Shown: one piece after another, positions 4,779 to 61,500 of the stretch
Layout of the letters: each line of letters starts with the position of its first letter
Numbering within the stretch: the stretch's first letter is position 1
Source: Actinomycetota bacterium
GTDB lineage: Bacteria > Actinomycetota > Acidimicrobiia > Acidimicrobiales > Palsa-688
Direction: 5' to 3'
Assembly (NCBI GenBank): GCA_021323695.1
Contig: JAJPKN010000038.1
Span: 1-64,000, forward strand
DNA length: 64,000 bases
Translations under genes and position numbers: made by a program
The notes under the pieces: model-generated
What the model was told of the DNA's origin: nothing
The model's input: the letters and a program-made list of their open reading frames with translations, nothing else
Database searches by the model: none

Positions 4779-5216
4779 ATGGGCCTCTTCGACCCCATCG
4801 ACACGGCGGCGACAGGCGTTGACGCCTCGCAGACCTGGCTCAATGCCATCTCGGACAACATCGCCAACATCAACGATGTCACCTCCACATCACAAGGTGC
4901 CTACCAGACGCGCTACGTGGTCATGGCCGCAGTACCGGGCCAGCCGGGGGGGACGGGCCCGGCCAGCGCGCTGGACGCCAGCATCGGCGGCGGCGTCGAG
5001 GTGGCGGGCGTCGCCCTGGGCAGCCCGGCCGGTGTGCTCGAGTACGACCCGAGCAACCCGCTGGCTGACAAGCAGGGCATGGTCAGGGCGGCCAACGTCG
5101 ACCTCGGTGCGCAAATGACCGACATGATCATGGCCCAGGACGGCTACGAGGCGAACATCGCCACCATCAGCCGCGCCCAACAGGCCTACCAGGCGGCCCT
5201 GGGGTTGAAAGTATGA
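4779..5216 (+). CDS. flgC: flagellar proximal rod protein FlgC
   Basis: FlgC is the second proximal rod subunit. The 145-residue product has the family pattern: ATGVDASQTWLNAISDNIAN near the N-terminus and a C-terminal helix with VDLGAQMTDMIMAQDGYEAN then ALGLKV. The ATG at 4779 has an AAGGAG ribosome site 9 bp ahead and gives the expected short N-terminus. Its TGA overlaps the fliE ATG (ATGA), so fliE is probably coupled. Confidence 0.95.
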   Translation: MGLFDPIDTAATGVDASQTWLNAISDNIANINDVTSTSQGAYQTRYVVMAAVPGQPGGTGPASALDASIGGGVEVAGVALGSPAGVLEYDPSNPLADKQGMVRAANVDLGAQMTDMIMAQDGYEANIATISRAQQAYQAALGLKV

Positions 5217-5662
5217 GCATGGTCTCGCCCGTCGGGGCGGTCACCGGCCCGAGCGCCCTGTGGCCACCGGGTGCCGCCCAACCACCAGGGGCCCAGCAGC
5301 CCGGAGCCGGCCCTATGGGGGCCGCAGGGGCCGGGGCCCAGCTCCCCCAGCCTGCCCAGCCGACTTTGCCCACCTCCCCGACCCTGGGGACGGGCGTCGC
5401 CCCAGCCGGAGCTGGCCTCACGGCGGCCGGCAACGGCACCGACAACGGTTTCGCGGGCGTCTTGGGCAGCGCCATAGACAGCCTCCAAGCGGCCCAGAGC
5501 GGCGCGGACAGCCTGGCCACCCAAGCCGCCACGGGCAGCCTCACGAACGTTTCCGACTACATGGTGGCAGCTGAGGAGGCCAACCTCGACACCCAGCTCA
5601 CCGTGGCGGTAAGGAACAACGCCTTGCAGGCCTTCCAACAGGTCATGGGGATGCAACTTTGA
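5213..5662 (+). CDS. fliE: flagellar hook-basal body protein FliE
   Basis: FliE links the MS ring (FliF) to the rod. The last 75 residues match the family, with a NVSDYMVAAEEANLDTQLTV segment then VRNNALQAFQQVMGMQL at the C-terminus. The first 70 residues are a Pro/Gly/Ala-rich extension, making it 149 residues instead of about 100. It starts inside the flgC stop (ATGA), and its own TGA overlaps the likely TTG start of fliF. Confidence 0.93.
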   Translation: MSMVSPVGAVTGPSALWPPGAAQPPGAQQPGAGPMGAAGAGAQLPQPAQPTLPTSPTLGTGVAPAGAGLTAAGNGTDNGFAGVLGSAIDSLQAAQSGADSLATQAATGSLTNVSDYMVAAEEANLDTQLTVAVRNNALQAFQQVMGMQL

Positions 5663-9231: not shown

Positions 9232-10577
9232 CCCCTGCCATCGCCCAGGACCGGCGGGGGAGCACCTCGAGCTCGGCCTCCGTCCGCGCCCGCCTGGAGG
9301 CGGCCATCTCCGCCGCCCGCCCTCGTCCCGTGGGCCGCGTCCGCTCCGTGGTCGGCTTGAGCATCTTGGTCGAGGGGGTCAACGCCGCCATCGGAGAGGC
9401 TGTCACCCTCCCCGCCCCCTCGGGTGAGCTCGTGGCCGAAGTGGTGGCCATCGATGACGACGGCCTGGTCTGCCTGCCCCTGGGCGACCTTCAGGGCATC
9501 CGCGCGGGAGCCCCGGTCGAGGTCGCGCCGGGCCGCCTGACCATACCAGTTGGCCCCGAGCTGCGGGGCCGGGTCCTCAACGGGCTCGGCCGGCCGATCG
9601 ACGGAGGCCCCAGCCTCCGGGACCTGGCCCGGGTGCCCACCGCGGGCACCCCGCCCCACCCCCTGCGGCGGTCCCTGGTCGAGACCCAGTTGCCCCTCGG
9701 GGTGCGCGCCATCGACGCCCTCCTCCCCTGCGGACGGGGACAGCGGCTCGGGATATTCGCGGGTTCGGGAGTAGGCAAGTCCAGCCTCCTGTCCATGGTG
9801 GCCAGAGGCACCGAAGCCGACTTGTCCGTCATCGCGCTCGTGGGGGAACGGGGCCGCGAGGTCCGAGAAATGATCGAGCACGACCTCGGGCCGGCCGGCC
9901 TGGCCCGTTCCGTGGTGGTGGTCGCCACTTCGGACGAGCCAGCACTCGTGCGCCTGCAGGCCGCCCAAACGGCCACCCGCATCGCGGAGTGGGCCCGCGA
10001 CACCGGCCAGCACGTCGTGCTCATGATGGACAGCCTCACTCGCTACTGCATGGCCCAACGGGAGGTCGGCCTGTCCGCCGGGGAACCGCCGGCCACCCGA
10101 GGCTACCCCCCGTCGGTCTTCTCCCTCCTGCCTCGGTTGTTGGAGCGGGCCGGCGCCGGCGAGCGGGGCAGCATCACCGGTCTCTACACGGTCCTGGTCG
10201 AAGGCGACGACATGAACGAGCCGATCGCAGACGCCGCCCGGGCGATCCTCGACGGCCACATCGTGCTCTCCCGCCAACTGGCCACCGCGGGGCATTTCCC
10301 GAGCATCGACGTGCTGGAATCAGTGTCCCGGGTGGCCCCCAAAGTGACGACGGCGGAGCACTACGGCCAAGCCAACGAGCTGCGCCGCTTGATGGCTGCC
10401 TACCGTGACGCCAAGGACCTGGTGGAAATAGGTGCCTACGTGAAGGGCACCAACCCCACTGTGGACCGGGCCATCTCGCTGAAACCAGCGATAGACCATT
10501 TCCTCCGGCAAGACGCAGCCACCGTGGCCCCCATTTCCCAGAGCCTGGCTGCCCTGGCGACGTTGGTGGCACCATGA
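9228..10577 (+). CDS. fliI: flagellum-specific ATPase FliI
   Basis: FliI is the hexameric ATPase that helps unfold and release export substrates from chaperones. The 449-residue length is typical. Visible motifs are the Walker A GSGVGKS at 179-185, Walker B VVLMMDSLTR, and the conserved AGEPPATRGYPPSVF loop shared with F1-like export ATPases. The GTG start lies in the GTGA overlap with fliH, and the stop overlaps the fliJ ATG. The gene order fliH-fliI-fliJ is the standard ATPase complex. Confidence 0.97.
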   Translation: MTPAIAQDRRGSTSSSASVRARLEAAISAARPRPVGRVRSVVGLSILVEGVNAAIGEAVTLPAPSGELVAEVVAIDDDGLVCLPLGDLQGIRAGAPVEVAPGRLTIPVGPELRGRVLNGLGRPIDGGPSLRDLARVPTAGTPPHPLRRSLVETQLPLGVRAIDALLPCGRGQRLGIFAGSGVGKSSLLSMVARGTEADLSVIALVGERGREVREMIEHDLGPAGLARSVVVVATSDEPALVRLQAAQTATRIAEWARDTGQHVVLMMDSLTRYCMAQREVGLSAGEPPATRGYPPSVFSLLPRLLERAGAGERGSITGLYTVLVEGDDMNEPIADAARAILDGHIVLSRQLATAGHFPSIDVLESVSRVAPKVTTAEHYGQANELRRLMAAYRDAKDLVEIGAYVKGTNPTVDRAISLKPAIDHFLRQDAATVAPISQSLAALATLVAP

Positions 10578-11017
10578 AGCGGTACCGCTTCAACCTGGCG
10601 GCGGTGCTGCGAGCCAGGAGGGCACAAGAAAGCCTGGCCCGGGCAACGCTGGTGGCGGCCAACACTTCTGCCCATGCCGCGGAGTCGGCGGCCAGGCAGA
10701 GCCTGGCCCATTACGAGCAAGTCCTGCGGCTCACCGGGCTGGGCGAGCAAGGCTTCATGGCCTCCCGCCAGCGTGCCAGCCTGGCGGCCAAGTCCTTCCT
10801 CGATGCCAAGGCCTCGTCGGAACAGGCCAAGGCCGCCGCCGAGGCAGCCACCATGAGGTACCTGGGAGCGCGCCGGGCAGTAGCCGTGCTGGAGCGCCTC
10901 GAGGCCCGGCGCCGAGCCGAGCACGCCCGTGCCGTCCAGCACGAGGAGGCCCTGCTGGCCGACGAGCTGGCGGTCGGCCGCCACCGGGGCAGGGCGCTGG
11001 CGGGGAAAAGGAACTGA
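10574..11017 (+). CDS. fliJ: flagellar export central stalk protein FliJ
   Basis: FliJ is the coiled-coil stalk inside the FliI hexamer. The 147-residue product is almost entirely helical, with Ala/Arg/Glu-rich heptads, and opens with MKRYRFNLAAVLRARRAQE, the usual FliJ N-terminal pattern. The length matches the family. The ATG overlaps the fliI stop (ATGA). Sequence conservation in FliJ is weak, so position after fliI carries much of the call. Confidence 0.88.
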   Translation: MKRYRFNLAAVLRARRAQESLARATLVAANTSAHAAESAARQSLAHYEQVLRLTGLGEQGFMASRQRASLAAKSFLDAKASSEQAKAAAEAATMRYLGARRAVAVLERLEARRRAEHARAVQHEEALLADELAVGRHRGRALAGKRN

Positions 11018-11027
11018 AGGTGCGCCC

Positions 11028-12197
11028 ATGACCTACACCGACGGCCTCTCGGGCGTGCTGGCTGAGATCGGCCAGATCCAAGCGGCACTGTCCTGTCTTC
11101 CTCAGCTGGCCCAGCCGGGCGACTTCGAGAGCTTCTTGGCCATGGCCTCTGCCCTGCCCGACGAAGGAGGGCCGGTCACCAGCGCCCCCGGCAGCGCCAC
11201 GATCGGCTGGCCCCTGGAAGAGGGCTTGCCCGTCAGCCCTCAGCTCACGACGGCCGGCTCCGTCTCGGACGCACCCCAAGGTACCTACGAGTCGGCGGCC
11301 CTGGGCCTGTCGCCCGGCGCCCCCGCCCTGGCCAGCCCCCAAGCCGCCCTAGCCGGCTCCCAGGGCCTTGGCCAGCAGGTAGTGGCCGAGGCGGAGAGGT
11401 ACCTGGGCACCCCCTACCGCTGGGGCGGGACGGACCCCTCCCAAGGGCTCGACTGCTCGGGCTTGGTGCAGGACGTGTTCGCCAACCTGGGCATCCACCT
11501 GCCCCGGACCTCCCAGGAGCAGGCTCAGGTCGGCACCCCGGTCCCCAGCCTGGCCGATGCCCAGCCAGGTGACCTCGTTTTCTTCCCTGGGTCCGACGGC
11601 ACCGCGGCGGCACCGGGCCACGTGGGTATCTACATCGGCAACGGCCAGATGATCGACGCCCCTTACACGGGCGCCAGGGTACGGGTGGACCCGGTGGGCA
11701 GCCCGACGGCTATACGCCGTGTCATCGGCGGCCAGGCTGCTCTCGGCCTCTCGGCTGGCTCGGCCTCCAGCGCTCCCGCCCCGGGGCTCTCGGGCTACGG
11801 GCTTTCTGGCTACGGGCTTTCTGGCTACGGGCCAGTTTTCGCTCAGGCGGCAGCCCGCACCGGCGTGCCCCAGGACCTCCTGGCCGCCCTGGCCAGTACC
11901 GAGTCAGGTGGTCAGCCCGGCGCCGTGAGCCGGGCGGGGGCAGAAGGGCTCATGCAGCTGATGCCGGCCACGGCGGCCAAGCTGGGGGCCAACCCCTTTG
12001 ACCCCTCCCAAGCCATAAACGCAGCCGCGGACCTGCTGTCCTCCTATTACCAGCAGTTCGGTTCGTGGCCGCTGGCACTGGCCGCGTACAACGCCGGCCC
12101 GGCCGCGGTCCGCTCGAGCGGCGGCATCCCCCCGTACCCACAAACCCAGGCCTACGTCCAGTCCGTCCTCAGCCGTGCAGGAATGGAGCAACCATGA
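11028..12197 (+). CDS. fused NlpC/P60 peptidase and lytic transglycosylase in the flagellar operon
   Basis: This 389-residue protein joins two peptidoglycan hydrolases. Residues about 115-240 form an NlpC/P60 cysteine peptidase: the nucleophile is in LDCSGLVQDVF and the histidine in PGHVGIYIGNGQMIDAP. Residues about 275-385 form an SLT-type transglycosylase: the catalytic Glu is in STESGGQPGAV, followed by GLMQLMPATA and LAAYNAGPAAV. Three LSGYG repeats link the domains. No signal peptide is visible, so export by the flagellar apparatus is plausible. It sits between fliJ and fliK, where a cell-wall hydrolase could open a path for the rod as FlgJ does in proteobacteria. Its stop overlaps the fliK ATG. 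Confidence 0.9.
   Translation: MTYTDGLSGVLAEIGQIQAALSCLPQLAQPGDFESFLAMASALPDEGGPVTSAPGSATIGWPLEEGLPVSPQLTTAGSVSDAPQGTYESAALGLSPGAPALASPQAALAGSQGLGQQVVAEAERYLGTPYRWGGTDPSQGLDCSGLVQDVFANLGIHLPRTSQEQAQVGTPVPSLADAQPGDLVFFPGSDGTAAAPGHVGIYIGNGQMIDAPYTGARVRVDPVGSPTAIRRVIGGQAALGLSAGSASSAPAPGLSGYGLSGYGLSGYGPVFAQAAARTGVPQDLLAALASTESGGQPGAVSRAGAEGLMQLMPATAAKLGANPFDPSQAINAAADLLSSYYQQFGSWPLALAAYNAGPAAVRSSGGIPPYPQTQAYVQSVLSRAGMEQP
11784..11828 (+). repeat. three in-frame 15-bp repeats encoding the LSGYG linker
   Basis: Units GGGCTCTCGGGCTAC, GGGCTTTCTGGCTAC and GGGCTTTCTGGCTAC follow each other and encode the Gly/Tyr-rich linker between peptidase and transglycosylase domains. Confidence 0.85.
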
Positions 12198-14482
12198 CCT
12201 TGACGAGCATCGCCCCAACCGAGCCGAGCCCCAACCAGGCCACGGCGCCTTTGCCTGGCTCCTCGGCCGCCACCACCAGCGCGGCGACCTTCGCCGGCAT
12301 GCTCGCCGTCCTGGGGGCGGTACCCCTCCAACCAGGGCTGTCGCCGGAGGTCCTCAGCCCGCCGGCAGATAGCACGTCCGCGGCCGGCGTGGCCTCTGTC
12401 GACAGCGTCGGTGGCACCGGCGGGGCAACCGGCACCGGCGGGACCGCCAGCACGGACGAGGCAGCTGGCACCGGCGGCATCGCTGGCACCGGCGGCATCG
12501 CCGGCACCGGGCCGGGTGCCACTGGCACCCCCGCTGGCCGCGCCTCCTCTGGCAGCGCCCCCGCTGCCAGCACCGGCACGGGCGGCACTGACCCGCCCTC
12601 AGGGCCCGCCGCAGCCAAGGGCGAGGGCGGGGGCAGCTCGCAAGCCCAGGGCGCGTCCAGCAGCTGGTCCTCGGGTGGGCCGAGCTCGGCAGGCTCGACT
12701 GGCTCGGCAGGCTCAACAGGCTCGTCTGGCCCCGCCGGCCCCACGACGAACGTGGCAGCGACGTCGGCCAGCCCGGCAGGCACCGGCAGTGCAGGTGCCA
12801 GCTCCGCTGGCCACACCGACCCCTCAGCCTCGGGCGCCGGCACCGTCCGTCCCGCAGGGCCCAGAGCAAGTGCGCCCGGCCCGGGTGCGCCCGGACCAAG
12901 TGCACCTGGTGCTCCTGCCCGGGTGACCGTTACCGTCACAGCCAACGATGCACAAGGACCGCCCGGAGGCTCATCTAAGCCCGGAGGCCAAGCCGGCTCT
13001 GGCCAGGCGGGGGGACCTCTGGGCACTGGGGCCAGCCCCGCAGCCAGCCACGGGGCCACGCCCGAGGCCGGGGGCTTCCCACCCCAGGGGGTTGCCGGGC
13101 CAGCGGCAGAGGCTGCCGCACCCCTGCCCCCCGCCGCTTCGGCCGCACTAGCCGGGCCCGGAGGCCCACCGACCACGGGCGGCCCCCCGGGCCTGGCCGA
13201 CCGAGCAGCTGGAAGTGCGCCTGACGGCGAGCCTCCGGGAGGCAACCGGGCAGCCGTGGCTACCTCGGGAGCAGGGGGCAGCCGACAGCCAGCCGTGGGC
13301 CAGGCGGGGGTACCGGCCGCGCCACCCACCGGCCCGGGCACCGGGCCCAGCCAGCCCACCGCCGGAGCCCAGGGACTGGCCAGCCAGCCAGCACGGGGGC
13401 CACTACCCCAGGCCGGCCCCGGTGCCGGGACCGCCACCACTGGCCCGCTCCCCGGTAGCCACGGCGCTCTGCCGCCAGGTGGGCCCCAGGACGCCGCCCG
13501 ACTGGCGCCCACTGGTACCGCCGCGGCCCCAGGCACTGGCACTGGCACTGGCCCCGCCCCGGGCGCGGGCGCTGGGCCAAGCCCCGCAACTGGCCCGGGT
13601 ACCACAGCAAACAGTGCTGGCCCGCAGGCCCCACTTGCAGGGCCCCAGCCAGCCCCCAACGGCTCCGGCACCACTTCGGTTGGCGGCTCCGCTTCGGCTG
13701 GCCCGCTCCGCCCAGGGCCTGCCACGCCCGGGGCACCAGGAGCGCCAGGGACACCTATAGAGGGTGCGCCGGCACCAAGTACCGGCGAGAGAGGCGGCCC
13801 CGACGGTGGGAACACCGGGACTAGCAGCCCCGGTACTGGCAACATCGGGACCGGGGGCCCCGGCGGCGGTGCAGGCGGGCCCTCGGGTGCCCCCGCGTCC
13901 CAGCCGCCGACCGGGGTGGAGGGCACCCACCCGGGCAGCGCCGGCAGCACCCTGGCCGGTGGGAGCCCGGTCATCGGCACCCTGGCCAGCACCCCGGCAC
14001 CGGGGCCTTCCCCGGCACCCGCGCCAGGCGCGCTGGCCAGCGGCCCAGGCCCGGTACCCCACCCTGAGCCGGTGGCCGACCAACTGGCCACCGCCATCGG
14101 GCCGGCCGCCCGCCAACCGGACGGCAACTACCAAGTGAGCATCCGGCTCCACCCTGAGGAACTGGGCGTCGTCCACGTTGAGCTGCACATCGACGCGGGA
14201 GTCGTGAACGTGTCCGTACACGCGGACGGTGACGCCACCCGGGACCTGCTCCGCCAGAACATGGGCCATCTGCGCCAGCAACTGGCCAGCAGCGGCTTGG
14301 CGACCGGCCGCTTCGACGTGGGGGGCGGGTCACCACAGACCACCCAGGGGCAGGGCCAGCAGCGGGCCGCCTCGCCCGGCGTGCCCCCGGGAGCCGGGCT
14401 CCCCGGCCAACCTGCAGCGCTCAGTGCGGCCGAGCCCCTTCTCCCAGCATCGACCGAGCGCGCCCTGGACATGAGGTTGTAA
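12194..14482 (+). CDS. fliK: flagellar hook-length control protein FliK
   Basis: FliK measures hook length and switches export from hook to filament proteins. Only the last 130 residues are clearly conserved: the Flg_hook domain with YQVSIRLHPEELGVVHVELH and VSVHADGDATRDLLRQNMGH. The preceding 600 or so residues are Gly/Pro/Ala/Ser/Thr-rich and almost free of aromatic residues, consistent with a long flexible ruler. At 762 residues it is longer than the usual 400-600. The ATG lies in the ATGA overlap with the hydrolase gene. flgD follows after 4 bp. Confidence 0.9.
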   Translation: MTLTSIAPTEPSPNQATAPLPGSSAATTSAATFAGMLAVLGAVPLQPGLSPEVLSPPADSTSAAGVASVDSVGGTGGATGTGGTASTDEAAGTGGIAGTGGIAGTGPGATGTPAGRASSGSAPAASTGTGGTDPPSGPAAAKGEGGGSSQAQGASSSWSSGGPSSAGSTGSAGSTGSSGPAGPTTNVAATSASPAGTGSAGASSAGHTDPSASGAGTVRPAGPRASAPGPGAPGPSAPGAPARVTVTVTANDAQGPPGGSSKPGGQAGSGQAGGPLGTGASPAASHGATPEAGGFPPQGVAGPAAEAAAPLPPAASAALAGPGGPPTTGGPPGLADRAAGSAPDGEPPGGNRAAVATSGAGGSRQPAVGQAGVPAAPPTGPGTGPSQPTAGAQGLASQPARGPLPQAGPGAGTATTGPLPGSHGALPPGGPQDAARLAPTGTAAAPGTGTGTGPAPGAGAGPSPATGPGTTANSAGPQAPLAGPQPAPNGSGTTSVGGSASAGPLRPGPATPGAPGAPGTPIEGAPAPSTGERGGPDGGNTGTSSPGTGNIGTGGPGGGAGGPSGAPASQPPTGVEGTHPGSAGSTLAGGSPVIGTLASTPAPGPSPAPAPGALASGPGPVPHPEPVADQLATAIGPAARQPDGNYQVSIRLHPEELGVVHVELHIDAGVVNVSVHADGDATRDLLRQNMGHLRQQLASSGLATGRFDVGGGSPQTTQGQGQQRAASPGVPPGAGLPGQPAALSAAEPLLPASTERALDMRL

Positions 14483-14486
14483 ACCG

Positions 14487-15074
14487 ATGAGCGACATCAC
14501 CGCCACCACCGGCGCCGCCGGGGCCACCACCACCGCCACCCAGCCCACGGCCACCCTCCCGCCCGGCTATGTGGCCCCCCCGGCGTCGGCGGGCACGACC
14601 AGCCAGGGGCTGAACGGGGTCAACGCGGGCACGTTCCTGCAGCTGCTGGTGGCCCAGCTCCAGTACCAGGACCCCACCAGCCCGGTCGATTCGACCCAGT
14701 TCCTCTCCCAGACCGCGGCGTTCGAGGAGGTGCAGCAGCTGCAAAGCCTCCAGTCATCGCTTTCGAGCCTGGTGAGCGCCCAGCAGGCCGGTGCGGCCAC
14801 CGCGCTGCTGGGAGCCCATGTCACCGGTACAGACGCCAACGGCAAACCCGTGTCCGGCGTCGTCACCGAGGTCCAACTGACGCCCAGCGGCCCGCAGCTG
14901 ACCGTGGGGGACCAGGCCATCGCCTACAGCTCGGTCAGCACAGTCACGCAGGCGTCAGGCACGCAGGCGTCGAGCTCGCCCACCCTGACGAGCTCAACCG
15001 GCACGGGCTCAGGCCCGTCCAGCACCCAGAGCTCGCCCACCCTGACGAGCTCGCCCACACCGTCGAGCTCCTAA
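14487..15074 (+). CDS. flgD: flagellar hook assembly scaffold FlgD
   Basis: FlgD caps the growing hook. Of its 195 residues, the part at 43-90 matches the family (NAGTFLQLLVAQLQYQDPTS then PVDSTQFLSQTAAFEEVQQL). After it comes a short beta region that is the likely remnant of the FlgD Ig-like part, then a Ser/Thr-rich tail with a repeated SSPTLTSS motif. It is close to the typical size. flgE follows after an 88-bp purine-rich leader. Confidence 0.93.
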   Translation: MSDITATTGAAGATTTATQPTATLPPGYVAPPASAGTTSQGLNGVNAGTFLQLLVAQLQYQDPTSPVDSTQFLSQTAAFEEVQQLQSLQSSLSSLVSAQQAGAATALLGAHVTGTDANGKPVSGVVTEVQLTPSGPQLTVGDQAIAYSSVSTVTQASGTQASSSPTLTSSTGTGSGPSSTQSSPTLTSSPTPSSS

Positions 15075-22188: not shown

Positions 22189-23085
22189 ATGCGCAGATTG
22201 CAGGTTCGAGTGGGCCATGTGGTGGGCGGGCTGTTGGTGCTCGCCGCAGCCGTGGCGCTGGTGCAGTCCAGCACCTCTGGGCGTGCGGGAGCGCTACCAC
22301 CGGGCGGACCAGGCAGCACGCAGGCGGCCAGCAGCACCCTCACGCCGGTCACGGCTCAGTCCCCCGCCGCGCCGCAGCCGCCGGCCCAGCCCTTGGCCCC
22401 CGGCACCGGTCAAACCGGCCAAGGGGGGTCGGTGTCGGTCAACCTGGGCGGCAGCCTGGGCAAGCCGAGCACAAGCATCACCATCATCATCGGCCTCACG
22501 CTCCTCGCCGTCGCCCCTTCCCTGCTGATCCTGCTCACCAGCTTCACCCGCATAATTATCGTGCTGTCCTTGACCCGCCAGGCACTGGGCCTGCAAAACG
22601 TGCCGCCCAACCAGGTACTGGCCGGTTTGGCCCTCTTCCTCACCCTCTTCGTCATGGGCCCGGTCATAAGCCAGGTGAACGCCCAGGCCGTGCAGCCCTA
22701 CCTGTCAGGCAAGATCACGGCTTCCCAGGCCTACTCCGCCGCCGAGGCGCCCATAAAGACCTGGATGTTGAAACAGACCCAGGCAGACGACCTGGCCCTC
22801 TTCGACAAGGCCAACCCCAAGCCCCCGTCCCCCCAGGCGCTGCCCATGTCAGCCGTGGTGCCGGCGTTCGCCCTCTCCGAGGTGCGGACGGCCTTCATAA
22901 TCGGTTTCGTCATATTCATCCCCTTCCTGGTGATAGACCTCGTGGTGAGCTCGACGCTGATGTCGCTCGGGATGATGATGCTCCCACCGTCATTGGTCTC
23001 CCTGCCATTCAAACTGCTGCTGTTCGTGATGGTGAACGGCTGGGCACTGGTCGTCCAGTCCCTCATCACCAGTTTCCATACCTGA
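22189..23085 (+). CDS. fliP: flagellar export gate protein FliP
   Basis: FliP forms the core pore of the flagellar type III export gate. The 298-residue product has a signal peptide-like N-terminus, a Pro/Gln-rich linker, then the FliP domain: LLILLTSFTRIIIVLSLTRQ, a FALSEVRTAFIIGFVIFIPF segment, and a last TM with PFKLLLFVMVNGWALVV. The N-terminal linker (about residues 30-85) is longer than usual. fliQ follows after 19 bp. Confidence 0.96.
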   Translation: MRRLQVRVGHVVGGLLVLAAAVALVQSSTSGRAGALPPGGPGSTQAASSTLTPVTAQSPAAPQPPAQPLAPGTGQTGQGGSVSVNLGGSLGKPSTSITIIIGLTLLAVAPSLLILLTSFTRIIIVLSLTRQALGLQNVPPNQVLAGLALFLTLFVMGPVISQVNAQAVQPYLSGKITASQAYSAAEAPIKTWMLKQTQADDLALFDKANPKPPSPQALPMSAVVPAFALSEVRTAFIIGFVIFIPFLVIDLVVSSTLMSLGMMMLPPSLVSLPFKLLLFVMVNGWALVVQSLITSFHT

Positions 23086-24222: not shown

Positions 24223-25488
24223 ATGGCGAGCGGCGACAAGCACTCCAAGACCGAAGCACCAACCCCTAAGCGCAAGAAAGAGGCCCGCCGCGAAGGCACG
24301 GTGGCCCGCACGCCCGAGCTGGTCACCTGGGTGGTGGTGCTGGCCGGCACCTACCTGGCCCAGTACACGGTGCAAAGGACCTACACCCTCTGCCAGCAGC
24401 TCGTCCCGAAGGTGGCCGGGGCGATGAGCCGCCCGGCACTGGCCAACGACCTGGCTGTGGCCGGGAGCGCAGCCACCGGCGCCCTCAGCGCCATGGCCCC
24501 CGCCCTCCTCGGCTCCATGGCCTTGGCCCTGGTGGTCAACCTGGCCCAGACCCGCGGGCTCATCAGCTTCAAGCGCCTCAAGCCCTCCCTCCGCAGCCTC
24601 AACCCCAAGGCCGGCCTGGCCCGCATGTTCGGCACCCGAGGGCTGTGGGAGGTGGCCAAGCAGGCGCTCAGGGTAGGGGTGCTCAGCCTGGTCGCCTGGC
24701 AGACGGTAGCCGGGCTGCTGCCGGTTATGACCGCTCACGGCCCCCTGGCGGTCACGGCGGTCGCCTCCCAGGTGGCCACCCGCGCGCTGGCGTTGGCCAG
24801 GGAGGTGGCCGCCATCAGCCTGGTCCTGGCCGCGCTGGACTACCTGTTCCAGCGGCACAAGACGGCCCAGAGCCTGAAGATGACCAAGGAAGAGGTAAAA
24901 GAAGAGCGGCGCCAGAGCGAAGGCAGCCCACTGGTGCGCGGCGCCCTGCGCCGCCGGCAGCGCCAGCTCTCCCGCCACCGCATGATCATGGCGGTGGCCA
25001 AGGCCGACGCCGTGGTGGTCAACCCGACCCACTACGCAGTGGCCGTCTTGTACGTCCGGGGCCAAGGCGCGCCCCGCGTGGTCGCCAAAGGGACGGACCT
25101 GCTGGCCCTGCGCATCCGGGAGGAGGCCACTACCCGTGGCGTGCCTGTGGTGGAGGACCCGCCCCTGGCCCGCGCCCTGTACGTCGCCTGCGAACTGGAG
25201 CAGGAGGTGCCCAGGGAACTGTACGAGGCCGTCGCCCGCCTGCTGACCTTCATCTACTCGCTGCGGGCCCAGGGCAGGACCAGGCGGCTCGACGGGGGCC
25301 CCCACCGGACGGCGTTGCTGGAACCGGTCGGCGGGGGGGCCGCGGGGGCCCGGGCCACTGCCACCAGCGCTGCCGCCCGGGTGGCCGCCGTCACCGGGAT
25401 GGCCACCATCACCGGGACCGCCGCCGGCCGGGTGGCTGCCGCCGGGATGGCCACCATCACCGGGACGGCCGCCGGAGTGGCCGGCTAA
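24223..25488 (+). CDS. flhB: flagellar export specificity switch protein FlhB
   Basis: FlhB wraps the gate and changes substrate specificity from hook to filament after self-cleavage. The 421-residue product starts with the family motif KTEAPTPKRKKEARREGTVA, has four TM helices, and carries the autocleavage site NPTH at 267-270 in VVVNPTHYAVAVLY. The last 60 residues are an extra Ala/Gly/Thr-rich tail built from a duplicated GMATITGTAAG motif, not part of the usual domain. Confidence 0.96.
   Translation: MASGDKHSKTEAPTPKRKKEARREGTVARTPELVTWVVVLAGTYLAQYTVQRTYTLCQQLVPKVAGAMSRPALANDLAVAGSAATGALSAMAPALLGSMALALVVNLAQTRGLISFKRLKPSLRSLNPKAGLARMFGTRGLWEVAKQALRVGVLSLVAWQTVAGLLPVMTAHGPLAVTAVASQVATRALALAREVAAISLVLAALDYLFQRHKTAQSLKMTKEEVKEERRQSEGSPLVRGALRRRQRQLSRHRMIMAVAKADAVVVNPTHYAVAVLYVRGQGAPRVVAKGTDLLALRIREEATTRGVPVVEDPPLARALYVACELEQEVPRELYEAVARLLTFIYSLRAQGRTRRLDGGPHRTALLEPVGGGAAGARATATSAAARVAAVTGMATITGTAAGRVAAAGMATITGTAAGVAG
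25394..25475 (+). repeat. 34-bp direct repeat in the flhB 3' end
   Basis: Bases 25394-25427 recur at 25442-25475 with one mismatch, 48 bp apart (16 codons). Both copies stay in frame and encode GMATITGTAAG. Confidence 0.85.
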
Positions 25489-25602: not shown

Positions 25603-27654
25603 TTGCGTCCCAACCAAATGACACTGGTGGGCGTCCCAGCGGCGGTGGTCTGCATCGCGGTCATGCTTGTGGTGCCCCTGCCCACCCCGCTCATAGACGT
25701 GCTGATAACCCTCAACCTGGTGGGCTCGGTGATAATCCTGCTCACCAGCATGTACGTCAAGCGGGCGCTCGACTTTTCCGTGTTCCCGTCCCTGTTGCTG
25801 ATCGCCACCATGTACCGGCTGGCCCTGAACGTGAGCGTCACCCGCCAGGTGCTCCTCCATGCCCAGGCCGGCAACGTGGTCGCCGCCTTCGGTCATTTCG
25901 TGATCGGGGGCTCGTTGATCGTCGGCCTGGTGGTCTTCTTGATCGTCATCGTCATCCAGTTCATCGTCATCACCAACGGCGCCCAGCGGGTGGCCGAGGT
26001 AGCGGCCCGCTTCACCCTCGACGGCATGCCGGGCAAGCAGATGGCCATCGACGCCGACTTGAACAGCGGCCTCATAGACAAAGACGAGGCGAGGCGGCGC
26101 CGGCGCGAGGTGGCGGCCGAGGCCGACTTCTACGGGGCCATGGACGGGGCGTCCAAGTTCGTCCGGGGCGACGCCATAGCCGCCATGGTGATAATGGCGA
26201 TCAACCTGGTCGGCGGGCTCGCCATCGGGGTGCTGCAGGACGGGGACAGCTTCGGCCAGGCCATAAGCACCTACAGCCTGCTGTCGGTGGGCGACGGCCT
26301 CGCCTCCCAGCTGCCCGCCCTCCTCATTTCCATATCGACAGGCATCATCGTCACCCGGGCAGGCACGGAGTCCGACCTGGGGACGGAGTTCGTGTTCCAG
26401 ATGCTCCGCCAGCGCCGGGCGGTCCGCATCGCCGGCACGGCCGTCGCTGTCCTCGCCCTGGTGCCCGGGCTCCCGAAGATCCCGTTCCTGTTGGTGGGGG
26501 GGGCAGTGCTGTTGGTCGCGGGCCGGCTCCCCGACGACGCCTCCCTAGGCGCCAGGGCGGAAAAGCAGGCAGCAGCGGCCGCTCCTCCCCCACCCCCGCC
26601 CAGTTCCCCCGAGGTGCTGGCCCGGGACATGAAAGTCGACCCGCTGGAGCTCGAAGTGTCCTTCAACCTGGTCGAGCTGGTGGACCCCTCCCGCGGCGGC
26701 GACCTGCTGGAGCGGGTGAAGGCGTTGCGGCGCAAGATCGCCCTGGAGATAGGGGTGGTGCTCCCCTTGGTCCGCACCCGCGACAACATCGACCTCCCGG
26801 CTTCCACCTACACGATCAAGGTCCAGGCGGCCGAGGTCGCCCGGGGCAGCGCCCTGCCCGGCCACGTCCTCGCCATCGGCGACATGCTGGGGTCGCTCCC
26901 GGGCAGCCCCACCAAGGAGCCGGTGTTCGGCCTGGACGCGAAGTGGGTCCCGGTCACGGCTCGGGCCCAGGCCGAGCGCATGGGCGCCACCGTGGTCGAC
27001 CCGGCCTCGGTCATCACCACGCACCTGTCCGAGGTGGTGAAACAGTACGCCGGCAAGATGCTGACCCGGTCGGCCACCAAGGAACTGGTGGAGATCACCA
27101 AGCGCTCCGACCCGGTCGTCGTGGAGGAGCTGAGCTCGGCCCAGGTTTCTTTGGCCGAGATCCAGCGGGTCTTGCGCGACCTGCTGGACGAGGGTGTCTC
27201 GGTACGGAACCTGTCGCGGATCTTCGAGGCCCTGACCGAAAAGGCGCGGACCACCCACGACCCCGAGGCCTTCGTGGAAGCCAGCCGCCAGGCGCTCGGC
27301 CCCGCGCTTTCCTCGGCGCTGGCCACTGGCAACCGCCTGCCCGTCATCACCCTCGACCCCGTGCTGGAGCACCAGCTGAGCGAGGTGCTGCGGACCGCTG
27401 AGGGGGGGAGCTTCCTGGCCCTGGCCCCGGACAAAGCCGAGGAGCTCACCTTGGCGGTGGCCCAGCGCAGCCGGGAAGCGGAACAGGAAGGCGACAACCC
27501 GGTGCTCGTCTGCGCCACGCCCTTGCGCCCGGCGCTCCGCAAGCTGGTACGCACGGCCGTGCCGCGCCTGCCCGTGCTCTCCTACGCGGAGCTGTCGCCC
27601 CAGCTCCGCCTGGACACAAAGGGGGTGGTGAGCCTTGCCCACGCTGCGGTTTGA
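25603..27654 (+). CDS. flhA: flagellar export gate protein FlhA
   Basis: FlhA forms the nonameric ring that receives substrates and couples proton flow to export. The 683-residue length is typical. The N-terminal membrane half has about eight TM helices and the FHIPEP region (a run of Arg then EVAAEADFYGAMDGASKFVR). The C-terminal cytoplasmic half has DPLELEVSFNLVELVDPSRG and a RTTHDPEAFVEASRQALGPA region. The TTG at 25603 has a GGAGG site 7 bp ahead; an ATG five codons in is an alternative. The next ORF overlaps its 3' end by 20 bp. Confidence 0.96.
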   Translation: MRPNQMTLVGVPAAVVCIAVMLVVPLPTPLIDVLITLNLVGSVIILLTSMYVKRALDFSVFPSLLLIATMYRLALNVSVTRQVLLHAQAGNVVAAFGHFVIGGSLIVGLVVFLIVIVIQFIVITNGAQRVAEVAARFTLDGMPGKQMAIDADLNSGLIDKDEARRRRREVAAEADFYGAMDGASKFVRGDAIAAMVIMAINLVGGLAIGVLQDGDSFGQAISTYSLLSVGDGLASQLPALLISISTGIIVTRAGTESDLGTEFVFQMLRQRRAVRIAGTAVAVLALVPGLPKIPFLLVGGAVLLVAGRLPDDASLGARAEKQAAAAAPPPPPPSSPEVLARDMKVDPLELEVSFNLVELVDPSRGGDLLERVKALRRKIALEIGVVLPLVRTRDNIDLPASTYTIKVQAAEVARGSALPGHVLAIGDMLGSLPGSPTKEPVFGLDAKWVPVTARAQAERMGATVVDPASVITTHLSEVVKQYAGKMLTRSATKELVEITKRSDPVVVEELSSAQVSLAEIQRVLRDLLDEGVSVRNLSRIFEALTEKARTTHDPEAFVEASRQALGPALSSALATGNRLPVITLDPVLEHQLSEVLRTAEGGSFLALAPDKAEELTLAVAQRSREAEQEGDNPVLVCATPLRPALRKLVRTAVPRLPVLSYAELSPQLRLDTKGVVSLAHAAV

Positions 27655-45171: not shown

Positions 45172-45999
45172 GTGGGGCGAAGCTGCCGGGTAGGCGCGCA
45201 AACCATCGTGACCGGCTCAACGACGCCACCTGCGCCCCAGGAGCACCAGGGCGCCCACAGCGCGAGCGCGCCGAACAGGAAGGCCCTTGCCCCAACGGGT
45301 GGCGCGGACGTTAGGGCGGTTGGCGCCGGCACACCAGTAACAGCTAACGACGAAGCAAGCACCAAAAACAGGCACCCGTCGACCACTGCCCGCGCGGACA
45401 CAACTACCCAAAACCCGCGCGGTACAGGACCGAACAGCGTTGCCGCCCGGCAAACGGCCCGACAAGGACAATCACGCGGTAACCTAGCGCCCACCGGCCA
45501 TACCGGCGACCGCTCCAAGGCACCCGATTTTCCCGGCCTCCACCCGGTGCCGCCGACAGGGCGCTACACCCACGAGGCCGCTAAAGGTACCGCGATTAAC
45601 TCGAACCAAACTCTTCAATGCCCCTGGCCCAAGCTGGCTCAGCCAGGAGGTCACAAGCTCACCCCGTGCTCACCGCTCTCAGTGGCGCAGGTATCGCTGT
45701 ACGTCGGGGTACGCACAGGAAAAAGGAACCTCAGTCGCCGGAGAAGCCGCGCATTTTCACCCCCGTCCGCTCAGAAACCCGGCCCAGGACCCGGCCTGCC
45801 AGGTGCAGGCGAGGGACAGCCCGGGGTGCGTGGAATAGCGCACATTGCGCATTCTTCCAGGTCTGCCGATTTCGCGCAAGACCAGAAGCTGGCCTCCGCC
45901 CAGGACCGGGGAAAGCCAAACGCCTACAGCCGGCGGTGCCGCTCACCGATGAAAAGATGGGGTACAGCCGCCCCCGTCATCGGAGCCGGGTTATTTTGA
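45172..45999 (+). CDS. unrecognised 275-residue ORF before the GGDEF-EAL gene
   Basis: Not recognised. The frame stays open for 276 codons in a stretch with only about 60% GC, where stops should be common. The product is polar and probably disordered: rich in Pro, Gly, Thr, Ser, Arg and Gln, basic, with no TM helix or known motif. Codon use differs from the neighbours, with far more A/T third positions. The GTG has a TAGGCT box 6 bp upstream. Its stop overlaps a possible TTG start of the next gene (TTGA). It may be a real, possibly acquired, gene, or a long leader region that happens to stay open. Confidence 0.38.
   Translation: MGRSCRVGAQTIVTGSTTPPAPQEHQGAHSASAPNRKALAPTGGADVRAVGAGTPVTANDEASTKNRHPSTTARADTTTQNPRGTGPNSVAARQTARQGQSRGNLAPTGHTGDRSKAPDFPGLHPVPPTGRYTHEAAKGTAINSNQTLQCPWPKLAQPGGHKLTPCSPLSVAQVSLYVGVRTGKRNLSRRRSRAFSPPSAQKPGPGPGLPGAGEGQPGVRGIAHIAHSSRSADFAQDQKLASAQDRGKPNAYSRRCRSPMKRWGTAAPVIGAGLF
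45832..45858. promoter_or_regulatory. operator-like imperfect palindrome
   Basis: GCGCA (45838-45842) and TGCGC (45846-45850) flank CAT, and outer GGAAT and ATTC-TTCC also nearly pair. It lies 99 bp before the first possible start of the GGDEF-EAL gene and could be a regulator site. Confidence 0.35.
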
Positions 46000-48581
46000 G
46001 CAAGCAACCGAGCCGACAGGCCATACCCGACGGGCAACTGGGGCAGTTCTCGTCCCCCCGTGCCCTGGCCCTGGTGACCCTGGGGGCGGGAGCGGTGGCC
46101 GCCTTGTACTTCTGGGAGCTGGCCCGGCTGGCCCCCCCCGGCGGGCAGCGCCCCGAGCTGTGGCCGGTGGTGGCGGCCGGGGTCTGGCTGGCGGGTGCCC
46201 AGCCGGTCGCCGTGCGCAACCAGAGGTTCAGCATCTCGGCCGGCCTGCAGGAGATACCGGTCCTGGTGGGCATCGCGTTCTTACGCCCCTGGGCGGTGCT
46301 GGTGGCGGCCGCCTGCGGCCAGCTGGCAGCAGAGGCCCAGCGGAGGCGGCCGGTGCCCAAGCTGCTCACCAACTCGGTGGCCTACGTCGCCTCCGTGGGC
46401 CTGGGCACCTTCGTCTACGACCGCTTCATGGCCGGGGCGTCGCCGGTGGGCGCCCAGGGTTGGGGCCTGGCGGCGGCCGCGGTCGCCGTCATCACCCTGG
46501 CGGACCTGGTCCTCGTGACCGGCACCTTTGCCGCCGCCGACCCGAGGTGGCGCCACCCACCTGTCAGCGCGATAGTCCTCCAGGCCGGGCTGGGCACCGC
46601 GGTCTGCACCACCGCCGGCTTCGTGGCCATATCCCTGGTCTGGGTGAGCACCTGGGGCATCCTGCTGTTCATCGCCATGGCGGCGGCGGCCGACCTCGGG
46701 TACCGGGCCACCTTGGTGGCCAAGCAACGCTACGCCAACCTGGAGAAGCTGTACGAGTTCACCCGGCGGCTGTCGTCGCTGACCGAGGGACGGGACGTGA
46801 TCAGCGCCGTGCTGGAGGAGACCGCCACCATGCTGTCGGCGGGCAAGGTGCAGCTGGTGGCCCCCCTGGACCCACCCCTCGACCAACTGGCCCTGCGCTG
46901 CACCAAGAGGGGGGACGACAACCCCGAAGTGCGCGAGGGCGTGCCCCTTTCCCCCCTGGAAGCCCTGGTCCGCAAGCACGGGGCCCTGCTGCTCAGCTCC
47001 ACCACCCAGGACACCGAGGTCATCGACGCCATGGCCGCCGAGGGCATCACCGAGGGCATGGTCGCCCCCCTCCAGCGTGACGACCCGCTGGCCGGCTACC
47101 TGCTGGTCGCCGACCGGCCCTTCCGGCACGAGGGTTTCAAGCGTTCCGACCTGCGCTTCTTCGAGGCGCTGGCGGTGAACGCGGGCGTGGCCCTGCGCAG
47201 CAGCGAGCTGTTGGAGCAGCTCCGCCACGAGGCGGCCACCCGCCAGTACCAGGCCCACCACGACTCGCTCACCGGCCTGCCCAACCGGGTGCTTTTCTCC
47301 GAACGGCTGGAGAGCATCTTGGACACAGCCGCCAACAACGCCCGCACAGCCGTCATGTTGATGGACCTGGACGGTTTCAAGGAGGTCAACGACACCCTGG
47401 GCCACGGGACCGGCGACGGGATCCTGAAAGAGGTGGCCCGGCGCCTGGGCTCGCTGGAAGAGGACGGCTTCATGGTGGCCCGCCTGGGTGGCGACGAGTT
47501 CGCCGTCCTGGTCCCCGCTGCCCCCAGCGACGAGGCCCTGTCGGTGCTCGGCCAGCAGGTCATCGACTCGATCCGGGAGCCCATGGCAGTGGAGGGCCTC
47601 CTGCTCGACGTGAGGGCGAGCCTGGGGGTGGCGGTGTTCCCCGAGCACGCCAGCCACGCCACGGGGCTGTTGCGCTGCTCGGACGTGGCCATGTACGCGG
47701 CCAAGGGTGCCGGCGGGGGGGTGCAGGTCTACAAGCCTTCCGAGGACCGGGCAACACCGCGGCGCCTGCGCCTGGCCACCGAGCTGCGCCGGGCCATCGA
47801 CTCCCGGAGCCTGGACCTGTGGTACCAGCCGGTAGTCGGCCTGGACAGCGGGACGGTCATCTCCTGCGAGGCCCTGCTGCGCTGGAGCCACGACCAGTTC
47901 GGGCCCATCCCGCCCAACGAGTTCATACCCATCGCCGAGAGCGCGGGGCTGATCGACCCCCTCACCTGGTGGGTGCTCGAGGTCGCCCTGGGCCAGGTGA
48001 AGCAGTGGAGGCTGCACGTGCCTGGCCTCAGCGTGGCGGTCAACCTCTCTGCCCGCAGCCTCATGAACATGGACATCTCCAAGCGCCTGGGCAGCCTGCT
48101 CGAGCGGGTGGGGGTAAGCCCGTCGGTGCTCACCTTGGAGCTGACCGAGTCTTCCACCATGGCCGACCCGGTGGGTTCCCATCGAGTGCTCAACAGCCTG
48201 AACGAACTGGGGGTCAACCTCTCGATCGACGACTTCGGCACCGGTTACTCCTCATTGAGCCGCCTGAAGCAGTTGCCCTTCGACGAGCTGAAGATCGACA
48301 AGAGCTTCGTGAAGGAGATGGTGACCGACCGGGGCGACGAGGCGATCGTGCGCAGCACGATCGAACTGGCCCGCAACCTGGGCCGGACGGTCACCGCCGA
48401 AGGGGTCGAGGACCGGGCCACCCTCCAGCGCCTGGCCGCATTGGGCTGCAACGCGGCCCAAGGGTTCTACCTGGCCCGGCCGCTGCCGCCTGCTCAGTGC
48501 GAGTCGTGGCTGCTGGCCGCCCCCAGCGTGTGGCCGAGCGGCCTCATCCTGCCCAGCCGCTACCACGAGGGCACCAACTAG
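45957..48581 (+). CDS. membrane-bound GGDEF-EAL cyclic-di-GMP enzyme
   Basis: It should make and/or break cyclic di-GMP. The 874-residue product has about seven N-terminal TM helices (residues 40-260, a MASE-like sensor), a GAF-like region (about 275-420), a GGDEF domain with intact RLGGDEFAVLV (509-519), and an EAL domain with E638-A639-L640 in CEALLRWSH, NLSARSL, LTESSTM, and D758-D759-F760 in DDFGTGYSSLSRL. Both active sites look intact. The ATG at 45957 has no ribosome site; a TTG at 45996 overlaps the stop of the ORF before it and has a GGAG site, so it may be the true start (861 residues). Confidence 0.93.
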   Translation: MGYSRPRHRSRVILSKQPSRQAIPDGQLGQFSSPRALALVTLGAGAVAALYFWELARLAPPGGQRPELWPVVAAGVWLAGAQPVAVRNQRFSISAGLQEIPVLVGIAFLRPWAVLVAAACGQLAAEAQRRRPVPKLLTNSVAYVASVGLGTFVYDRFMAGASPVGAQGWGLAAAAVAVITLADLVLVTGTFAAADPRWRHPPVSAIVLQAGLGTAVCTTAGFVAISLVWVSTWGILLFIAMAAAADLGYRATLVAKQRYANLEKLYEFTRRLSSLTEGRDVISAVLEETATMLSAGKVQLVAPLDPPLDQLALRCTKRGDDNPEVREGVPLSPLEALVRKHGALLLSSTTQDTEVIDAMAAEGITEGMVAPLQRDDPLAGYLLVADRPFRHEGFKRSDLRFFEALAVNAGVALRSSELLEQLRHEAATRQYQAHHDSLTGLPNRVLFSERLESILDTAANNARTAVMLMDLDGFKEVNDTLGHGTGDGILKEVARRLGSLEEDGFMVARLGGDEFAVLVPAAPSDEALSVLGQQVIDSIREPMAVEGLLLDVRASLGVAVFPEHASHATGLLRCSDVAMYAAKGAGGGVQVYKPSEDRATPRRLRLATELRRAIDSRSLDLWYQPVVGLDSGTVISCEALLRWSHDQFGPIPPNEFIPIAESAGLIDPLTWWVLEVALGQVKQWRLHVPGLSVAVNLSARSLMNMDISKRLGSLLERVGVSPSVLTLELTESSTMADPVGSHRVLNSLNELGVNLSIDDFGTGYSSLSRLKQLPFDELKIDKSFVKEMVTDRGDEAIVRSTIELARNLGRTVTAEGVEDRATLQRLAALGCNAAQGFYLARPLPPAQCESWLLAAPSVWPSGLILPSRYHEGTN

Positions 48582-58595: not shown

Positions 58596-61500
58596 ATGGT
58601 GGGGATGCCTCCTGGCCCACCGCCTCCTGGCCCACCGCCTCCTGGCCCACCGCCTCCTGGCCCACCGCCTCCTGGCCCACCGCCTCCTGGCCCCCCGCCT
58701 CCTGGCCCGCCGCCCCTGGGCCTTCACCCGGCTGTCGGCACCTGGTTCGCCCGCCGGTTCCCCGAAGGGCCGACCGAAGCCCAGGCGCGGGGCTGGCCGC
58801 GGGTACGGGAGGGCGCGGACGTGCTGATCGCCGCCCCTACCGGGTCAGGCAAGACGCTGGCCGGCTTTTTGATTGCCATCGACGACGCCTACCGGGCCCA
58901 CCAGGCTGGTGAGGACCTGGCTGGCCAGACCCGGCTGGTCTACGTCTCGCCCCTCAGGGCGCTGGCGGTGGACGTCCACCAGAACCTGGAGCGGCCGCTC
59001 GCTGAGATCGCCCAGGTGGCCACCGAGCTCGGGCTACCAGCACCACCCATCACCGTGGCCGTCCGCACCGGCGACACCCCCGCCCGGGCCCGAGCCGCCA
59101 TGGCCAAGGACCCTCCGACGTTCCTGGTCACCACCCCCGAAAGCCTGTACCTGTGCCTGACCGCCGAGCGCAGCCGCGCCTCGCTGGCCCATGTGAGGAC
59201 GGTCATCGTGGACGAGATCCACGCCCTTGCCCGTGACAAGAGAGGCTCCCACCTGGCCCTCACCCTCGAGCGCCTGGACCATGCCCAGGCCGGTGCCTGC
59301 CCGCAACGCATCGGGCTCTCGGCGACCCAAAAGCCGCTCGAGCTGACCGCCGACCTGCTGGCCGGCACGGCCCGGCGCGGCCCCGTCCAGCTCGTGGACT
59401 GCGGGCACCGACGCGACCTCCAGCTACGCTTGGAACTGCTCGACAGCGAGCTCGGAGCGGTCCTGTCCCAAGAACAGCTGGCCGAAGTGGTGCAGCGCAT
59501 TGCCGCCCACGTGCAGGGCCACCGCACGACGCTCGTGTTCGTCAACACCCGCCGGCTGTCCGAACGGCTGGCTCACCTCCTCGGCGAGGCCCTCGGCCCC
59601 GACCAGGTGTCCGCCCACCACGGCAGCCTCTCCGCCGAGCGCCGCCGCCGGACCGAGCAGCGGCTCCGGGCGGGCGAGCTGCGCGCCCTGGTGGCCACCG
59701 CCTCGCTGGAGCTCGGCATAGACGTCGGCCCAGTGGAGCTGGTCTGCCAGGTCGGCTCGCCCCGGTCGGTGTCCACCCTGCTGCAGCGGGTCGGGCGCGC
59801 CAACCACTCGCGCCACGGCGTGCCAGAAGGGGTGCTGTTCCCCACCACCCGCGACGAGCTGGTCGAGTGCTGCGCCTTGCTGGCGTGCGCCCGCAAGGGG
59901 AAGCTGGACTCGGTGCAGCCTCCGGTGGCACCGCTCGACATCCTCGCCCAGCAGCTGGTGGCGGAGGTGGCCGCCGCCGGCCAGTGGGCCGAAGAGGACC
60001 TGTTCGACCTGGTGCGCAGGGCGGGCCCCTACAAGGACCTGAGCCGGGAGGACTTCGACGGCGTGCTGGAGCTCGTCTCCGAGGGGATCCCAACCGGTCG
60101 CGGCACCCGCATGGCCTACCTGCACCGGGACCGGGTCAACCACGTCCTCCGGCCGAGGCGGGGAGCCCGTCTGGCCGCCCTGACGAGCGGCGGGGCCATC
60201 CCGGAGGTGGGCGACTACCGGGTGGTGGCCGAGCCGGACGAGACCTTCGTGGGGACGGTCAACGAGGACTTCGCCGTGGAGTCGATGGCAGGCGACGTGT
60301 TCTTGCTGGGCACCCACCCCTGGCGCATCCGCCGGGTCACTCCCGGCCAGGTCCGGGTCACCGACGCCGAGGGGGCGCGCCCCACGCTGCCGTTCTGGCT
60401 GGGTGAAGCCCCCAGCCGGGCCCCGGAGCTGTCGGAGGAGGTCGCCCTCCTGCGCCGCCAGGTGGGCGAAGCCCTCCCCGCCGGGCGGGCCCAAGCTGTC
60501 GCATCGGTACGGGAGGCCTGCGGTGTGGGCCAGGACGCAGCCGAACAGGTCGTTGCCTACCTGGCCACGGGCTTGGAGGAGCTGGGTGCCCTGCCCACCC
60601 AGGACGACGTGGTGCTCGAGCGTTTCTTCGACGAAGCCGGCGGCATGCAGCTCGTGGTCCACGCACCTTTCGGCGGGCGGGTGAACCGCGCCCTGGGGCT
60701 GGCGCTGCGCAAGCGGTTCTGCGTGACCTTCGACTTCGAACTGCAAGCCGCGGCCAGCGACGACGCCGTCTTGCTCTCCCTGGGCCCCCAGCACAGCTTC
60801 CCCCTCGCTTCCGTGCCCCGCCTCCTGCACCCCGCCACCGTGCGGGCGACGCTGGAGCAGGCGGTGCTGACATCGCCGATGTTCACCGCCCGGTGGCGCT
60901 GGGACTTGAACCGGTCCCTGGCCGTGCTGCGCTTCCGGGGAGGCAAGAAGAACCCGCTGCCGGTCCAGCGCATGGAGGCCGACGACCTCATGGCCGCCGT
61001 GTTCCCCGCCCTGGCCGCCTGCCAGGAGAACACCCCGCCCGGCCCGGTGACCGTGCCCGACCACCTGCTGGTGCGCCAGGTGCTGGACGACTGCCTCCAC
61101 GAGGCCATGGACGCCGAAGGGCTGGAGGCCCTGGTGGCGGGCCTGCGTTCGGGGCAGGTACGTGCCCACTTCGTCGACTCGGTGCAGCCCTCGGTGCTGT
61201 CCCACGAGATCCTCAACAGCCAGCCCTACACCTACCTCGACGACGCCCCCCTCGAAGAGAGGAGGGCGCGCCAGGTGCAGCTGCGGAGGGGCTTGCCGCT
61301 CGAGGCGAAGGACCTGTCGAAGCTGAGCCCAGCGGCCCTGGAAAAGGTGAGAGCAGAAGTGGCCCCCGCCCCTCGCCACGCCGACGAGCTCCATGACCTC
61401 CTGCTCAGCACCATCGTCCACCGCCCCCGGCCCGAATGGCAGCCTTGGTACGAGGAGCTGGCCTCCGCCGGGCGGGCCATGTCGGTGCGCCCGGTGCCAG

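Follow-up and report, generated by a model that had tools for sequence, protein, structure and literature searches.

FlgJ of the beta- and gamma-proteobacteria, which joins a rod cap to a beta-N-acetylglucosaminidase, is a flagellar wall hydrolase without a Sec signal. The CwlT-type hydrolases, in which an LT-like domain and NlpC/P60 occur in one protein, serve conjugation (type IV), another wall-crossing export machine. FlgJ leaves through the flagellar gate, and making an opening in the wall for the rod has been proposed as its task (PMC9307174, PMC8517470); for Salmonella, export of FlgJ itself by the flagellar system is on record (PMC9307174). SltF of Rhodobacter and LTaseBb (BB0259) of Borrelia are SLT-type enzymes dedicated to the flagellum, which have a Sec-type signal and act with a separate FlgJ (PMC8517470). 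In the monoderm Bacillus subtilis the SLT-type enzyme CwlQ (YjbJ) is tied to flagellar biology and, according to a title cited in PMC12153297, is needed for swarming and not for assembly. The Actinosynnema pretiosum gene 'nlpC' (CNX65_RS11925), annotated with a transglycosylase SLT domain, lies in the order fliI-tolA-nlpC-fliK-flgD and was up 9.8-fold together with flagellar genes in a phoP mutant; it is known by that annotation and expression value, and the relevant passages of PMC9019756 do not discuss its function, export or architecture. Actinobacterial flagella fall into two groups, those of basal classes with FlgFG and those of later classes that have neither FlgFG nor FlgJ (PMC10746217). 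How a rod lacking FlgF, FlgG and FlgJ assembles in a thick wall is left open by this study, the main comparative one on these flagella, and the words peptidase, lytic and hydrolase are absent from its main text. A search of the open-access literature found no description of a fused flagellar NlpC-SLT protein, nor experiments on the export or activity of the present hydrolase or its relatives.

The protein considered here is encoded in a 64-kb stretch of DNA, hereafter the window (positions 1-64,000, forward strand, of contig JAJPKN010000038.1, assembly GCA_021323695.1), from an Actinomycetota bacterium (Acidimicrobiales; Palsa-688). It is probably a flagellum-dedicated wall hydrolase, here bifunctional and FlgJ-free, that is exported through the flagellar gate; hydrolases with rearranged enzyme domains fill the fliJ-fliK slot in most of the flagellated actinobacteria surveyed. 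Like FlgJ, it is flagellar and has no apparent Sec signal, but it is without the rod-binding domain PF10135, NlpC/P60 and SLT domains replace the glucosaminidase, and its gene lies between fliJ and fliK. It shares SLT chemistry and a flagellar setting with SltF and LTaseBb, but it has no apparent signal peptide, its genome has no FlgJ, and a peptidase is fused to it. CwlQ resembles it as an SLT-type enzyme linked to the flagellum of a monoderm but is a single-domain protein, and the A. pretiosum gene occupies the same slot.

The start codon was taken to be the ATG at 11028 and not the GTG upstream at 10929, because GC content by codon position shifts at the ATG, disfavoring the longer frame. 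A sequence-only reading had placed the gene between fliJ and fliK, with a 4-bp overlap to the latter, and the coordinates in Table 1 agree; fliJ ends 10 bp upstream. Pfam also identified FliI, FliK, FlgD and FlgE among the neighbors, and FliR is encoded in the window alongside the other gate components FlhB, FlhA and FliP.

Table 1. Coordinates of the wall hydrolase, its parts, and flagellar genes of the window.
Feature	Position	Strand	Basis or remark
Bifunctional wall hydrolase (leader, linker, NlpC/P60, linker, SLT), 389 aa	11028..12197	+	ATG start
Predicted leader helix, aa 7-22	11046..11093	+	AlphaFold2; overlaps leader motif SGVLAEIGQIQAALSC, aa 8-23
FxxxΦ gate-recognition-like motif, F33-ESF-L37	11124..11138	+	opens predicted helix 33-42
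Low-confidence linker, probably disordered, ~aa 46-109	11163..11354	+	AlphaFold2
NlpC/P60 (C40) peptidase domain, aa 127-231	11406..11720	+	PF00877 NLPC_P60, E 1.4e-28
Cys143 of NlpC/P60 domain	11454-11456	+	
His198 of NlpC/P60 domain	11619-11621	+	
Three tandem LSGYG repeats, inter-domain linker, aa 254-268	11787..11831	+	
SLT lytic transglycosylase domain, aa 270-364	11835..12119	+	PF01464, E 2.2e-27
Glu292 of SLT domain	11901-11903	+	
fliJ, 5' neighbor	10574..11017	+	PF02050, E 0.0032, below cut-off; backed by position
ATGA overlap of hydrolase and fliK	12194..12197	+	hydrolase TGA (12195-12197) shares 4 bp with fliK ATG (12194)
fliK, 3' neighbor	12194..14482	+	one FxxxΦ, at F33
flgD, hook cap	14487..15074	+	FxxxΦ at F50
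fliE-like frame	5213..5662	+	FxxxΦ at F80; assigned from position and sequence, not Pfam
fliP, export gate component	22189..23085	+	
flhB, export gate component docking early substrates	24223..25488	+	
flhA, export gate component	25603..27654	+	

An NlpC/P60 Cys-His peptidase followed by an SLT transglycosylase with its Glu had been read from the letters alone, and this is borne out: both Pfam matches are well over their curated cut-offs, and C143, H198 and E292 are unchanged across 30 aligned relatives. The SLT half belongs to SLT family 1 (PF01464), with E292, G307, M312, P313 and Y354 invariant in the relatives and the signatures GLMQLMP (GLMQ-MP) and AYNAGP mostly kept among the 30; it is also the sole SLT domain of the genome, in an assembly that is 92% complete. 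The other half has the PF00877 fold with the catalytic Cys and His of the NlpC/P60 (C40) family, whereas the third polar position of the site (around residue 210) is not conserved, being D, A, V or H among the relatives. With that position variable, hydrolase activity is graded as likely. In the AlphaFold2 model both domains have pLDDT mostly above 90 and are joined by low-confidence linkers (residues 46-109 and 236-255). Foldseek matched NlpC/P60 structures directly (6b8c, TM-score on target 0.90), and sequence searches led from the SLT half to Slt70 and MltF and from the NlpC half to the CwlT-like 4hpe. The CwlT-type proteins (PDB 4hpe, 4fdy) likewise combine the two activities, but they have the LT-like domain before NlpC/P60 and belong to conjugative elements; here, the order is reversed, the context is flagellar, and only the NlpC/P60 half aligned significantly, so the protein is not a CwlT-type conjugation hydrolase.

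The LSGYG repeats that the sequence-only reading saw joining the domains do stand there, three in tandem, but they are incidental: among the relatives aligned they occur only in the window protein, and they were judged lineage-specific because the linkers of the relatives differ. A close relative (L005:4001-5281, on the same contig as L087) has GVSGL repeats in the linker 5' of NlpC/P60. The linkers thus look like replaceable repeat tracts, GVSGL before NlpC/P60 in one protein and LSGYG after it in the other.

The absence of a visible signal peptide, part of the same reading, held up by residue composition and Kyte-Doolittle hydropathy. Residues 1-123 contain neither K nor R, and over residues 1-60 the 11-residue hydropathy mean peaks at 1.4, with no hydrophobic core; by these measures the protein does not have the N-terminal signal of a Sec- or Tat-secreted autolysin. 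What the N-terminus has instead is a leader of two short predicted helices (7-22 and 33-42, AlphaFold2), the second of which opens with an FxxxΦ sequence. FxxxΦ is a form of the flagellar gate recognition motif. The recognition motif is small and hydrophobic and serves early rod and hook subunits for docking at FlhB; it lies 30 or more residues in from the N-terminus, preceded by small nonpolar residues (PMC8983047). In E. coli FlgE, FADMF at 39-43 corresponds to the residues deleted as the motif in Salmonella FlgE, and FlgB, FlgD, FlgG and FlgJ of E. coli each have an FxxxΦ starting at 35-45, so that FlgJ, like the window hydrolase, has it within the first 50 residues. Within their first 130 residues, FliE, FliK, FlgD and FlgE (F41) of the window have exactly one each. 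The hydrolase itself has a single one, F33-L37, at the distance from the N-terminus and with the small nonpolar residues upstream expected of an early flagellar export substrate.

The leader was described by a 16-residue PSSM (pattern approximately ..V..RI..IQ.R), trained on 25 sites in proteins that have SLT alone in the same slot and scored on proteins outside the training set, every region being shuffled 1000 times. Out of sample, it was detected at p<0.01 in 6/6 NlpC-only, 3/3 SLT-NlpC and 25/36 NlpC-SLT proteins, and at p<=0.01 in only 2/68 control NlpC or SLT proteins outside recognised flagellar loci; these p-values are optimistic, the test sequences being related, and are to be read as rank evidence and not as exact probabilities. 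The window protein itself matches weakly, at 3.9 bits and p=0.005 against shuffles, the PSSM having been trained on other proteins. FxxxΦ follows the leader in 52 of the 66 proteins with a leader at p<0.05, where shuffles led us to expect 13.6 +- 3.0; the Geodermatophilaceae retain the leader, but with W in place of the F of FxxxΦ. The export idea of the sequence-only reading gains from a leader common to swapped architectures and from FxxxΦ at 33, neither of which that reading had noted.

Leaders were also seen beyond the phylum. A Vampirovibrionales SLT protein (L026:4001 region), encoded beside flgE and outside Actinomycetota, has the same leader, EAATQRIQEIEQRIAS, followed by FGQIL. An SLT protein of the spirochaete Brevinema (L070:3668-4381), which is one of the two leader-positive controls and has no apparent signal peptide, has EHIVSRIQSIESRITE followed by FSDIL; its gene precedes one resembling the spirochaete flagellar protein FlbB/MotE. 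The presence of the leader on these two proteins suggests that it is older than the phylum Actinomycetota.

The hydrolase is not a FlgJ, because both defining domains are missing from it. Pfam gave no match to the rod-binding domain PF10135 in the protein or its genome; the glucosaminidase PF01832 is likewise absent from the protein, and the one match in the genome lies on another contig. Rod composition was surveyed with PF10135 for FlgJ and with matches to the FlgG model for FlgF and FlgG, whose presence was called by manual inspection of the matches. All 10 NlpC-SLT genomes were without FlgF, FlgG and FlgJ, and all 3 SLT-NlpC genomes had FlgF and FlgG, a pattern that agrees with the published FlgFG split (PMC10746217).

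The two-domain architecture recurs in other actinobacterial flagellar loci, as the sequence-only reading had thought worth looking for. A scan of genome contigs and 41 related genomes yielded about 30 fused relatives, in uncultured actinobacterial genomes, Blastococcus, Modestobacter, Marmoricola and one Pseudonocardiales genome; wherever the contig was long enough, the gene was 3' of fliI/fliJ and 5' of fliK/flgD. A chance fusion or an assembly artefact was rejected on the strength of these approximately 30 independent loci. For the phylum as a whole, 396 genomes were sampled for a FliI-type ATPase, and HMMs derived from the fused proteins were run on the region downstream. A wall hydrolase was present in 44 of 49 readable fliJ-fliK slots and in 19 of 21 families: SLT alone (24 intact and one broken in frame), NlpC/P60 alone (6), SLT-NlpC (3) and NlpC-SLT (10). 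The window protein has both domains that would cut peptide and glycan bonds, but cutting both is not a general requirement, since many relatives have a single enzyme. Trees of either domain group the architectures (5 changes for SLT against 24 in shuffles, 3 for NlpC against 8.7), which suggests separate fusions in opposite domain order; this falls short of proving two fusions, because the domains are short and the trees poorly resolved.

The slot was without a hydrolase in five surveyed flagellated genomes; the enzyme is therefore not essential in every case. In three genomes of family f46 (L139, L142, L187), a small membrane protein resembling MotE lies in the slot, and in six other f46 genomes an SLT protein occupies it. 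The flagellated genome L182 (G226:C13:198700-204300), from the window's own order, lacks a hydrolase in the fliI-flgD interval. That the enzyme is kept elsewhere in such genomes was considered and rejected: the extra SLT proteins inspected, from three genomes of f46, proved to be housekeeping enzymes with a membrane anchor, adjoining coaE/uvrB-like genes. The slot SLT gene of L184 (G311:C21:857300-862900) is broken across three reading frames, the result either of an error in sequencing or of decay of the gene.

Two wall enzymes with no ordinary secretion signal and a start that resembles an export signal make a protein that probably travels through the flagellum. The slot, the domains, the conserved catalytic residues, the leader found across architectures and the lack of FlgJ are observations; from them we infer how export, activity, site, time and role may fit together. 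The hydrolase would be co-expressed with the rod and hook genes, and its leader, a short helix and then FxxxΦ at 33, would be recognised by the flagellar type III gate in the way rod and hook subunits are. In an unfolded state it would pass the gate and the nascent rod, then refold outside the membrane at the growing rod's tip; there, NlpC/P60 would cut stem peptides and SLT glycan strands, giving a local hole for the rod. It would thereby replace the hydrolase half of the work of FlgJ in a lineage without FlgJ, FlgF and FlgG, and confinement to the export channel may spare the rest of a monoderm wall from a double-activity autolysin. We favor, with fair but incomplete confidence, a dedicated flagellar peptidoglycan hydrolase that is an early substrate of the export gate and opens the wall for a rod lacking FlgF, FlgG and FlgJ, a role close to the rod-hole function that the sequence-only reading had itself only inferred. 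The recurrence of the order fliI-fliJ-hydrolase-fliK-flgD in about 30 fused loci was counted in its support, as were the 44 filled slots, the confidently predicted folds of both domains, the single SLT domain and missing FlgJ of the genome, co-regulation with the flagellar operon in A. pretiosum, and the flagellar export of Salmonella FlgJ. There is perhaps an even chance of a broader statement: that the short leader (helix V..RI..IQ.R, then FxxxΦ) is a portable flagellar export tag, kept in monoderms while the enzyme behind it was swapped and fused in at least two opposite orders, and that NlpC-SLT goes with the loss of FlgF, FlgG and FlgJ and provides, without need of FlgJ, a route through a thick wall for a minimal rod.

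Counted against the proposed role are the weak leader motif of the window protein, the W of the Geodermatophilaceae, the variable third NlpC/P60 position, the five empty slots, and B. subtilis, which builds flagella and is said, in what PMC12153297 states on the matter, to be without a dedicated flagellar lyase. The case of B. subtilis and the precedent of CwlQ lend something to the idea that a gate-exported flagellar hydrolase is dispensable for rod penetration and remodels the wall at finished basal bodies or affects surface motility; the five empty slots, and an enzyme chemistry that differs among lineages, point the same way. Near-universal retention between fliJ and fliK, the early-class context of fliK and flgD, and the loss of FlgJ in the NlpC-SLT genomes nevertheless fit assembly better, and we regard a role outside rod assembly as unlikely. 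That the protein acts mainly as a rod cap or scaffold in place of FlgJ, with hydrolase activity secondary, is very unlikely: FlgJ is absent and the two predicted leader helices could dock on the rod tip, but the conserved part is the catalytic one, the leader comprises only about 45 residues, the linkers are variable and disordered, and no resemblance to PF10135 was found in the protein.

Slightly less probable still is a general autolysin that uses Sec, Tat or some other export route and simply shares the operon. Among housekeeping autolysins NlpC/P60 and SLT enzymes are common, and NlpC/SLT fusions occur on Streptomyces plasmids and in non-flagellar rhodococcal loci (L064, L071). Against this are the K/R-free start with no hydrophobic core, the membrane anchor that housekeeping SLT proteins of related genomes carry at their N-terminus, a leader nearly confined to flagellar loci, and a synteny kept across the phylum. 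An extracellular lysin that leaves through the flagellum to act against other cells or on sheddable wall layers could be imagined, since flagellar gates are able to secrete proteins that are not structural, and contractile and phage-like particles often carry lytic domains (8v3w, Foldseek). The place of the gene, amid genes for early rod and hook proteins in almost every flagellated lineage, and its early-substrate-like signal make this the least credible reading of all.

In monoderms there is no periplasm between a Sec-exported hydrolase and the whole wall. The gate-exported hydrolase proposed here is a concrete, operon-encoded candidate for the rod assembly problem that PMC10746217 leaves open. 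Should the leader be an export tag, it would also supply a sequence rule by which enzymes exported through the gate could be sought in monoderms. Downstream of the flagellar genes, the window also encodes a large GGDEF-EAL protein of cyclic-di-GMP turnover (45618-48581), and a 1477-aa Lhr-type large helicase lies at 58596-63029.
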